NCBI RefSeq assembly: GCF_008973485.1
Contig: NZ_CP031223.1
Location: forward strand, 4,116,001-4,180,000
Reading direction: 5' to 3'
DNA from: Psychrobacillus glaciei
Lineage (GTDB): Bacteria; Bacillota; Bacilli; Bacillales_A; Planococcaceae
Length of the DNA stretch: 64,000 nt
Below the pieces are notes generated by a model. That model did no database searches. It saw only the letters and a list, made by a program, of their open reading frames with translations, and was not told the origin of the DNA. The position numbers and the translations under genes were made by a program. Positions 35,856 through 56,502 of this stretch are shown piece after piece (the first letter of the stretch is position 1; each line of letters begins with the position of its first letter).

Positions 35856-36035
35856 TTTGGCACCTCCTATAAGAATTGGCCATTTATACCGACAAAAGAA
35901 AAGCCTCTGATCTACGGATAGACACAGAGGCAGAAAGTCATCATCTAAGAAGAATCTGAATTTGCTTGTCCTCGGTAGGATATTAAGTGACATGCCACTC
36001 CTACTGTCTTCGGTACAAATGTATATTTCACAACA
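35856..36035 (-). promoter_or_regulatory. L10 (rplJ) autoregulatory leader with attenuator
   Basis: On the minus strand ACCGAAGACAGTAGG and ATCCTACCGAGG (35970-36016) form the characteristic L10-binding kink-turn stem. Downstream GCCTCTG / CAGAGGC (35903-35931) followed by TTTTCTTTT is a terminator-like stem. Excess L10-L12 is known in Bacillus to bind such leaders and reduce expression. Confidence 0.85.
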
Positions 36036-43067: not shown

Positions 43068-43345
43068 CTCCTTTTGGAAAAAAATAAAAAAAAGCGTCTC
43101 TGTCTATTGAAAATAGACAGAGACGCTTTAGGCGCGGTTCCACTCTGATTGAAAAGGTGTTTACAATACCTTTTCCACTTAGCATCTTTAACGCAGATGA
43201 TACGTCCAGCCTACTCGTACGTTCGGCATGGCACTCAGAGGTGCATTTCAGTAACTCATTGGTTCAGACCACTTTCAGCCGGTGATGGTCCTCTCTAAAG
43301 AACTTGCGTTACTTACTTCTCCTCATCTTAGCTTTTTATAGATTT
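43068..43345 (-). ncRNA. T-box riboswitch, cysteine-specific
   Basis: On the minus strand the conserved T-box AGAGTGGAACCGCG is at 43133-43146. Directly after it is a 17-bp terminator stem (43092-43108 with 43112-43128) and a T-run. The Stem I specifier region reads GAAATGCACC, giving codon TGC (43243-43245), that is Cys. The leader fills the 337-base gltX-cysE gap. Uncharged tRNA-Cys should switch on cysE and cysS. Confidence 0.95.
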
Positions 43346-54242: not shown

Positions 54243-55298
54243 TTATTTTTTCTTTATATAATTTTTCCGGTTATTTTTCGTAATTTGCTTCCACTTATTC
54301 GCTTCTGTTTTTTTGGCAACAACATTATTTTTTCGTTCGATATGGGCAAGCTCTCTTAATAATTTTATATAACTCCTATATCGTTCTTCTTTGAGTGTAC
54401 CGTTAGATATTGCTTCTTGAATCGCACAACCAGGTTCTTTTTTATGTTGACAGTCCCTAAAGCGACATCCTTCTGCTAACTCCTCAATGTCTTTAAAGCT
54501 AGCACTTACACCTTCCGCGCTATCCCATAATTGAAATTCTCGCATCCCAGGGGTGTCTATTAAAAGACCTCCTCCTGGGAGCAACGATAATTCACGATGT
54601 GTTGTCGTATGACGCCCTTTACTATCATCTTCTCGAATATCACTAACCACCATTACTTCTTCCCCAGATAATGCATTGATCAACGAGGATTTACCAACTC
54701 CCGAGGAACCTAAAAGTGCGCCTGTTTTACCTGCAGATAATAGTGTAGCAAGATGATCAATTCCCTCGCTCGTCACACTACTCACTGCAAACACATCTAC
54801 ACCAAAGGCAACTGATTCTACTTCATTCATATAATAGGCCAAGTCGTCACATGCATCTTTTTTTGTTAACACAACAACAGGTGCAGCACCTGAATCCCAT
54901 GCTGCTAATAAATATCTCTCTAAACGACGTACATTAAAGTCATCATTAAGAGACATAACAAGAAATACATAATCAACGTTGACAGCGATTAACTGAATAT
55001 CCGTTGTTTGACCAGCTACTTTTCTTGAAAACTGTGAACTGCGGGGGAGCACTTCCTGAATAATTCCTTTTTCTTCACCAGGCATTTGCTCCATCACAAC
55101 CCAATCCCCTACTGCGGGAAATGCTTCTCGGTCATGGTCAAACTTGAATTTCCCCGAAAGAGAGCATAGCCATTCACCTTCATTTGTTATGACACGATAT
55201 AAGTGTTTGTGCTCAAGTAAAACACGACCCACAATTCCTTTACCAAACATTTTTTCTTCCCATTTATTATTCCAACCATATTTTTCGATTAAATTCAA
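54243..55298 (-). CDS. rsgA: RsgA-family circularly permuted GTPase (long paralogue)
   Basis: Small-subunit-assembly GTPase family. The permuted order of motifs is clear: OB-fold with FPAVGDWVVME, then TKKD (G4), GSSGVGKSSLINALSG (G1), the KGRHTTTHREL switch and DTPGMREFQ (G3). A zinc site CRFRDCQHKKEPGC (Cys, Cys, His, Cys) follows. The 351 residues with the N-terminus NLIEKYGWNNKWEE and a basic tail (KNNRKNYIKKK) mark the longer paralogue group rather than the housekeeping RsgA/YloQ. The start is TTG, 8 bases after GGAGG. It lies just after a terminator and a 21-codon ORF, suggesting attenuation. Confidence 0.88.
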   Translation of the reverse strand: MNLIEKYGWNNKWEEKMFGKGIVGRVLLEHKHLYRVITNEGEWLCSLSGKFKFDHDREAFPAVGDWVVMEQMPGEEKGIIQEVLPRSSQFSRKVAGQTTDIQLIAVNVDYVFLVMSLNDDFNVRRLERYLLAAWDSGAAPVVVLTKKDACDDLAYYMNEVESVAFGVDVFAVSSVTSEGIDHLATLLSAGKTGALLGSSGVGKSSLINALSGEEVMVVSDIREDDSKGRHTTTHRELSLLPGGGLLIDTPGMREFQLWDSAEGVSASFKDIEELAEGCRFRDCQHKKEPGCAIQEAISNGTLKEERYRSYIKLLRELAHIERKNNVVAKKTEANKWKQITKNNRKNYIKKK

Positions 55299-55323
55299 TT
55301 TAACTTCCTCCTAATTTTCCATA

Positions 55324-55361
55324 TAAAAAAACCATGACTGCACAAATCAGCAATCATGGTT
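55324..55361 (-). terminator. intrinsic terminator between the small ORF and the rsgA-like gene
   Basis: AACCATGA.TGC / GCA.TCATGGTT stem, closed by TTTTTTT on the minus strand, only 26 bases before the rsgA start. No promoter is visible between it and rsgA. Confidence 0.8.
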
Positions 55362-55417
55362 CCCCGGTCATTAGTAAAGAAGCATATCAAAAAGAAAAGT
55401 AATAAACACTTACTTTT

Positions 55418-55483
55418 TTAGAGACATTTAGAGTGGGACATCATGAACTTACTGATTCGTGGATTTTTAATTACACTTGCCAT
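55418..55483 (-). CDS. 21-codon ORF, possible leader peptide of rsgA
   Basis: I do not recognise this product. It begins MASVIKNPRI, contains FMM and ends SHSKCL. Translation signals are good: AAAGGAG 9 bases before an ATG. A promoter-like TTGACA / TATTCT pair inside a palindrome lies upstream. Directly after its stop, AAAAGTAA / TTACTTTT can form a hairpin, and a strong terminator follows before rsgA. The layout promoter, short ORF, terminator, gene is what translation-dependent attenuation looks like. It could instead be a free-standing peptide. Confidence 0.45.
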   Translation of the reverse strand: MASVIKNPRISKFMMSHSKCL

Positions 55484-55526
55484 AATGCCTCACTCCTTTC
55501 CTTAAGTTATTTTCAGAATACTATAA

Positions 55527-55547
55527 GTATTGACATTATGTCAATAC
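55527..55547. promoter_or_regulatory. 21-bp palindromic operator-like site
   Basis: Perfect dyad around 55537; its core is TATTGACATTATGTCAATA, extended by G and C. It starts 5 bases after the ABC permease stop. On the minus strand it embeds a TTGACA -35 box (55539-55544) with TATTCT 18 bases on (55515-55520), so a bound regulator would cover the promoter. Confidence 0.65.
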
Positions 55548-55551
55548 ATTT

Positions 55552-56502
55552 TTATGCAGTTACATCTCTCTTAGTAAAAGACCAGTAACTAATAACTAAA
55601 AAGACAATGACATATACCAAAATGACTGCTATAGAAAATAGCATTGTTTGTCCCTCAATCATCGGGTGGTTATTTCCTATATATTGGCTTAGATTTGTAT
55701 TTGCGAATAAGACGTACTTCACAAACTCAAATCTGGATAAAATCATTACTATGTTTACCCCCATGAACATAAGGAAAATGGATATACCAATAGCAAGTGA
55801 ACTTGACCGGAATACGGAACCTATCATAAAAGCAAGCGTTCCAATAACAAATACATTTATAAGTGATAAACCAGTTAATAATAGAAGTCTTCCCCAGAAA
55901 GAAACGACTACAATCTGCCCATTCACTAACTCTAATTCTTTACCACCAATGGAATCAAAGAAGATATATCCACTTATCACACCTACTATAAATAGAACCA
56001 TTGTCATTACAATTGCAAATATCCCAACCGTAATAAGTTTAGAGGTTAAAATTTTCCATCTCTTCACCGGTCTAGTTAATAGCATTTTAATAGTACCTTG
56101 TGAAAACTCTGAGGCTACAATACCAGCGGCAACTACAACAGTAAATAATGTAATTATAGATAACATCCCAGGAATATCGCTGATAAAATATTTTTCTTCG
56201 TCAAGATCTATTGGAGCAATATTATGTTCTAAACGGTACTTTTCAACCTCTATCGATTCTTTAAACTGTTGCTTTTGATCTTTGGTCAAATTAGGAATTG
56301 CTAACTGTCCCTCAGAAGTCGTAATTTTTTCCTGACTATCCTGTTTCCAATCTACCCGCGATTCTGATTGGTTGTTAATCCATTTATTAATTCCTGCAAA
56401 ACCAATCATGAGAAGAGCAACGAGCACAACCATCACCCAAGTAGCTTTCTTACTCCAGAGTTTTAACCATTCATTTCTTATGAGATTCAGCAATTTGCCC
56501 AC
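55552..56502 (-). CDS. ABC-2 type transporter permease (YhcI/BcrB-like)
   Basis: Membrane subunit of an ABC exporter, 316 residues. An N-terminal cytoplasmic helix (LLNLIRNEWLKLWSKKATWV) leads into the first span. A large extracytoplasmic loop (about 40-105, rich in Lys, Gln and Glu) follows, then five more hydrophobic segments with SEFSQGTIKMLLTRPVKRW, the typical ABC-2 coupling region. It overlaps the ATPase gene by 32 bases. Substrate unknown; relatives are linked to peptide-antibiotic resistance or have no known role. Confidence 0.85.
   Translation of the reverse strand: MGKLLNLIRNEWLKLWSKKATWVMVVLVALLMIGFAGINKWINNQSESRVDWKQDSQEKITTSEGQLAIPNLTKDQKQQFKESIEVEKYRLEHNIAPIDLDEEKYFISDIPGMLSIITLFTVVVAAGIVASEFSQGTIKMLLTRPVKRWKILTSKLITVGIFAIVMTMVLFIVGVISGYIFFDSIGGKELELVNGQIVVVSFWGRLLLLTGLSLINVFVIGTLAFMIGSVFRSSSLAIGISIFLMFMGVNIVMILSRFEFVKYVLFANTNLSQYIGNNHPMIEGQTMLFSIAVILVYVIVFLVISYWSFTKRDVTA

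Follow-up and report, generated by a model that had tools for sequence, protein, structure and literature searches.

The 64-kb window from Psychrobacillus analysed here (the whole stretch of 64,000 nucleotides, to which all coordinates without a prefix refer) carries on its minus strand rsgA2, a gene for an RsgA-type GTPase that is preceded by a structured leader (Table 1). RsgA2 matched TIGR00157 with 183 bits (cut-off 100) and PF03193 with 180 bits, and the motifs GSSGVGKS, GRHTTT and DTPG as well as the zinc motif CxxxxCxH are intact. RsgA functions in folding of the decoding centre of the 30S subunit (PMC9032327). An initial reading of the DNA (referred to below as the sequence-only reading) had described the gene as a second RsgA; it is indeed an extra copy, although the genome actually encodes three RsgA homologues, so that "second" was right in spirit. 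In a tree of 48 proteins RsgA2 and canonical RsgA formed separate clades (support 100/100), E. coli RsgA also branched outside RsgA2, and a grouping of RsgA2 with the canonical housekeeping RsgA (the YloQ/CpgA orthologue of the prkC-rsgA-rpe operon) was not found. Canonical rsgA is located at C1:1446735, between a PASTA kinase gene, which it follows directly, and rpe. Canonical RsgA was present alongside RsgA2 in 24 of 24 genomes (24 genera), which had been picked for carrying RsgA2, and none of these 24 canonical genes was preceded by a uORF. The third paralogue (C1:2411080-2412090, minus strand, locus L002, 45% identity) grouped with copies from Listeria and Lachnospiraceae; a short uORF (MANSTYMVIWS) and hairpins are found upstream of it.

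Table 1. Features of rsgA2 and its leader, given in the order of the minus strand (positions in the window).
Feature	Position	Strand	Evidence or remark
Promoter-like site, TTGACA-18 nt-TATTCT	55515..55544	-	10/12 consensus matches
uORF Shine-Dalgarno (SD1), AAAGGAG	55493..55499	-	
H1 5' arm (predicted anti-antiterminator), spans SD1 and AUG	55480..55496	-	fold, swap test, conservation
uORF, 21 codons, MASVIKNPRISKFMMSHSKCL + stop	55418..55483	-	uORF homologues in further Psychrobacillus and in relatives
Antiterminator strand in uORF, codons 8-14	55442..55461	-	pairs with terminator 5' arm and loop (predicted: 55461-55442 with 55358-55341)
H1 3' arm, within uORF codons 13-18	55430..55446	-	fold, swap test, conservation
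Weak hairpin directly after uORF stop	55395..55417 (approx.)	-	fold
TTCTTT, matches NusG pause motif TTNTTT	55376..55381	-	sequence match
Anti-SD2 stretch CTTCTTTACTAAT, H3 5' arm	55370..55382	-	fold; swap test moderate
Intrinsic terminator hairpin CCATGATTGC..GCAGTCATGG	55332..55359	-	fold, -19 kcal/mol
Terminator U-tract	55325..55331	-	
H3 3' arm, includes rsgA2 SD (SD2) AGGAGG at 55312-55307	55304..55315	-	fold
rsgA2, RsgA-type GTPase, 351 aa, TTG start	54243..55298	-	TIGR00157, PF03193, distinct clade

Along the minus strand a promoter-like site, a Shine-Dalgarno sequence, a uORF of 21 codons, a weak hairpin, the TTCTTT motif, an anti-SD stretch, a terminator and SD2 follow each other in front of the TTG-started rsgA2. 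The promoter-like site and the uORF with its SD were recovered where the sequence-only reading had placed them, and the strong intrinsic terminator that it had proposed 26 nt before the start codon of rsgA was borne out. It had further claimed that no promoter follows the terminator; in agreement with this, no second promoter-like site was found between the terminator and rsgA2. A hairpin had also been assigned to the stop codon of the uORF, and here the picture has to be divided: the main hairpin, H1, lies elsewhere and joins the SD/AUG region of the uORF to codons 13-18, while only a weaker hairpin is found after the stop. Two elements were absent from that reading, namely the stretch complementary to the rsgA2 SD, by which SD2 is predicted to be sequestered in helix H3, and an antiterminator within the uORF. 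The gene for a permease ends upstream at 55552, adjoining the promoter-like site. TATTCT and the bases after it are conserved in other Psychrobacillus leaders. A perfect palindrome (GTATTGACATTATGTCAATAC, 55527-55547) covers the -35 region of the leader promoter and is not palindromic in the other Psychrobacillus leaders that were read.

The leader folds with -58.9 kcal/mol (z = -4.2), a value equalled by none of 200 shuffles. The combination of an SD-preceded uORF and an intrinsic terminator was found for rsgA2 alone among 54 genes of the 64-kb window, from which the base rate of the layout was taken, and the exact SD1-AUG pattern occurs once in the genome, where no copies of the leader with this pattern were found before other genes. 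No Rfam family matched the leader at the gathering threshold (best E = 0.99), and a riboswitch or T-box leader was ruled out for this reason. The sub-threshold match concerned the terminator region (55311-55366, minus strand) and the Streptococcus sRNA SpF36, and is probably due to chance. Elsewhere in the window, on the same strand, a T-box leader (43116-43338, RF00230, 119 bits) and a ribosomal protein L10 leader (35888-36031, RF00557, 73 bits) were recognised by Rfam. The TTNTTT motif was present in 31 of 76 own-family leaders, compared with 15.3 +/- 3.2 in shuffles, and in 18 of 18 Psychrobacillus leaders it is located 17-19 nt upstream of the terminator.

Pairing between the uORF and the terminator was analysed by a swap test on 76 leaders, in which predicted duplex energies were compared for uORFs and terminators taken from the cognate leader or from different genera. 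For the antiterminator duplex -24.6 kcal/mol was obtained for cognate and -14.3 kcal/mol for swapped partners; 60 of the 76 leaders reached the 5% level or lower. H1 likewise favoured the cognate partner (-19.9 versus -13.9 kcal/mol), and a control pair gave -11.3 and -11.2 kcal/mol, respectively. Within the own family 48 distinct combinations of uORF and terminator cores were counted, which are mostly perfect or near-perfect complements. Within Psychrobacillus, three pairs of the antiterminator carry compensatory changes on both sides, its covariation score was matched by 0 of 500 shuffles and slid pairings failed; H1 and the terminator are likewise conserved. Antiterminator and terminator are predicted to be mutually exclusive. 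A candidate antiterminator in which the uORF SD pairs directly with the terminator was rejected, as a cognate advantage was absent in the swap test.

The influence of ribosome position was modelled by a stall scan, in which about 30 nt were blocked to represent the ribosome and the rest of the leader was folded at equilibrium and not co-transcriptionally. Without a ribosome the probability of the terminator was 0.95. P-site positions at codons 1-3 lowered it to 0.47-0.59, and from codon 5 on it was back at 0.93 or above; the drop upon early arrest held for three footprint sizes. When the uORF middle was scrambled, the probability returned to 0.95; with only the H1 5' arm removed, it was 0.40. 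Therefore, H1 would act as an anti-antiterminator, and the switch would be ON with a ribosome held at the uORF start. An anti-antiterminator hairpin that takes up the initiation region of the uORF, as modelled here for H1, is one of the features of a vmlR-type attenuator. Modelled termination falls only with ribosomes at codons 1-4, in Psychrobacillus at codons 1-2, which makes the predicted inducing state, ribosomes held at the uORF start, narrower than the stalled ribosomes of the sequence-only reading. In about 31 of 73 leaders early arrest left the terminator at a probability of at least 0.7, and in the Psychrobacillus model H3 was not opened by it (accessibility of SD2 about 0.05-0.1). 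Arrest at the 3' end of the uORF, at the SHS motif, was ruled out as the ON state by a mean modelled terminator probability of at least 0.93. The codons of the uORF 3' end follow RNA pairing, and Brevibacillus-like leaders read the same RNA stretch in different frames.

Of 261 genomes of the order, which consists of one family, 213 encode an orthologue of RsgA2; across the class the figure is 187 of 398 sampled genomes. Among the 83 orthologue leaders of the own family, about 80 were called automatically as having both uORF and terminator, and in two that the caller missed (L037 and L069) the elements are visible by eye. Among the Psychrobacillus species the upstream neighbour gene varies while the leader is constant. 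SD-preceded uORFs before rsgA2 were also found in many other families of Bacilli, in Listeria and in one genome of the Clostridia (Peptoclostridium); sampled leaders of other families without a convincing uORF were excluded from the counts. Conservation of the ORF-terminator layout, which the sequence-only reading had named as a check, is thus strong in the own family, and uORF leaders related to it occur in further families. Leaders without a terminator occur in several families, and in these the uORF end mimics SD2 and is predicted to be able to bind the anti-SD. In such translational-type leaders (some other families, Listeria, Peptoclostridium) SD2 was open in the model with a ribosome at codons 1-8 and closed once the ribosome covered the uORF end, although several of them gave no clear early-arrest rule in the scan. 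Our reading of the models is that the terminator and SD-mimic platforms obey the same early-arrest rule, though it is not visible in every leader.

With no independent promoter, a conserved layout and an antiterminator that exists and covaries, these results support the original proposal of a translation-dependent attenuator before an extra RsgA. We consider it likely that the leader works as a vmlR-type attenuator under the control of ribosomes, in which a ribosome held early, probably by an inhibitor, would switch on RsgA2 as a putative partner of the housekeeping RsgA. In the absence of a ribosome on the uORF, H1 would bind SD1 to the 3' half of the uORF and mask the uORF middle, so that the terminator halts transcription. 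During normal translation of the uORF, which we infer to take place, ribosomes would cover the uORF middle and the terminator would form again. Only a ribosome that is held on the first codons (P-site at about codons 1-4, in Psychrobacillus 1-2) would block the H1 5' arm and leave the uORF middle free to pair with the terminator 5' arm and loop, whereupon transcription would enter rsgA2. The likeliest signal would be an inhibitor of the pleuromutilin, lincosamide or tetracycline type, by which ribosomes are caught at initiation or immediately after it, and RsgA2 would then act as an inducible partner of housekeeping RsgA on 30S subunits under such stress. Expression of rsgA2 may be induced by a drug or by starvation, as the sequence-only reading had it. 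Our most likely guess for the role of RsgA2 is that it protects against drugs by which ribosomes are held early.

In the own family the early codons of the uORF mostly read M-[A/T]-x-[V/L], and some of these patterns may resemble the peptides that cause arrest in erm leaders. Of 60 occurrences of ATTG in the early uORF, 51 are in frame, and 38 of 77 distinct uORFs encode Ile-Val/Ala, versus 17.9 +/- 3.3 in shuffles; therefore part of the early peptide appears to be selected, which would fit context-dependent arrest as well as branched-chain codons. The RLR (+x+) arrest motif of hflXr/erm-type macrolide leaders is absent from MASVIKNPRISKFMMSHSKCL. An amino-acid attenuator, in which uncharged tRNA at early codons (Ile, Val, Leu or other) stalls the ribosome and turns rsgA2 ON, would agree with the modelled early arrest, with the in-frame ATTG and with the content of Ile and Val in the 77 uORFs from all families, which is 24.7% in codons 2-12 versus 13.2% after codon 12. 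It is nevertheless unlikely, as the Psychrobacillus uORFs contain no run of one amino acid and vary in their early codons (MASV, MANL, MAIV), control by a single amino acid would be odd for a GTPase of ribosome assembly, and the T-box leader in the window shows another route of amino-acid sensing in this genome.

The ON state of the model, with codon 1-2 occupied by a subunit or ribosome, would also suit a feedback on assembly, in which immature or slow 30S subunits held at the uORF start are themselves the early-arrest signal and call up RsgA2 as a 30S maturation GTPase, in line with the role of RsgA in decoding-centre folding (PMC9032327). However, Ile-Val/Ala is kept in frame within codons 3-9 of many relatives, so that elongation through the early codons matters there, and we regard such feedback as unlikely too, if not slightly more so. 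That the uORF is accidental, and that the terminator just cuts readthrough or ends the transcript of the upstream ABC transporter, is suggested by the permease gene ending just ahead of the promoter-like site, but uORF, H1, antiterminator and terminator co-occur before rsgA2 in many genera despite differing upstream genes. This explanation is highly improbable and was discarded on the covariation of the antiterminator and on the canonical rsgA genes that served as controls.

The preferred reading, an attenuator of the vmlR type, finds its closest counterpart in the B. subtilis vmlR leader itself, in which drugs act as inducers by stalling ribosomes at initiation and the antiterminator is freed (PMC9226507). 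As far as predicted for rsgA2, both leaders place the uORF (MIN in vmlR) within an anti-antiterminator hairpin, followed by a pause hairpin with TTNTTT, a terminator and an SD-sequestering helix (PMC9226507); by analogy with SL-2 of vmlR, the weak hairpin after the uORF stop is possibly an RNA polymerase pause hairpin (PMC9226507). They differ in the uORF, which has 3 codons in vmlR (PMC9226507) and 20-29 codons in the rsgA2 leaders, in the antiterminator strand, for which the rsgA2 leader, unlike vmlR, uses the middle of the uORF coding sequence itself, and in the target, an ABC-F protein there and an RsgA-type GTPase here. In the Listeria hflXr leader rli80 control of an extra gene copy for a ribosome-associated GTPase likewise rests on a small ORF and alternative RNA structures (PMC6310831), but its uORF contains the RLR macrolide motif (PMC6310831), which the Psychrobacillus uORF lacks, and HflX splits 70S ribosomes whereas RsgA acts on 30S subunits. 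The cplR leader of Clostridioides difficile (uORF MRI) also combines transcription and translation attenuation with a 5' hairpin that sequesters the uORF, and differs by its three-codon uORF, its ABC-F target and an SD within the terminator stem (PMC10201436). Start-codon arrest by tetracycline or retapamulin at the E. coli toiL uORF opens a downstream gene as proposed for rsgA2, although on a translational/Rho-dependent platform and with a toxin-antitoxin target (PMC12121999). SCO6149 of Streptomyces coelicolor is a second RsgA that is controlled by WblC/WhiB7 and raised under translation inhibition, with activation by WblC under tetracycline; it is likened here as an RsgA paralogue and not as an RsgA2 orthologue, and its control by a transcription factor differs from the leader switch at rsgA2 (PMC7157823).

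The mechanism is known from vmlR, and the rsgA2 leader would be a new case of it. The literature covered, which comprised papers outside subscription, contained no description of such a leader ahead of rsgA in Bacillota. Attenuators such as the vmlR, hflXr and cplR leaders have repeatedly flagged unrecognised antibiotic-tolerance factors, and a leader before a separate RsgA subfamily in many families of Bacillota, Listeria among them, offers a concrete and cheap test of whether an assembly GTPase of the small subunit was turned into an inducible protection factor. An inducible RsgA2 would also offer a reason for the presence of two RsgA genes in so many Bacillota. The leader, conserved across Bacillota, appears to switch on an extra assembly GTPase when ribosomes are stuck at the uORF start, which hints at an undescribed response to blocked protein synthesis. 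More tentatively, and with no more than about an even chance of being right, RsgA2 may be an ancient, Bacillota-wide inducible GTPase for protection of the small subunit, kept off by leaders that differ in platform (terminator or SD mimic) and share the early-arrest ON rule, conferring tolerance to inhibitors of initiation and early elongation.

Two plasmid-borne copies were noted apart from this. On plasmid pMGMM7 of Lysinibacillus fusiformis (L169, 3977-5499) rsgA2 is located directly before the fosfomycin resistance gene fosM. A cyanobacterial rsgA2 copy on a plasmid of Leptolyngbya boryana (L208, 1358-1445) is preceded by an SD-equipped uORF (MTVFFAEITSMLQPQGTEGLVFSCTIQG), as if the leader had travelled with the gene.
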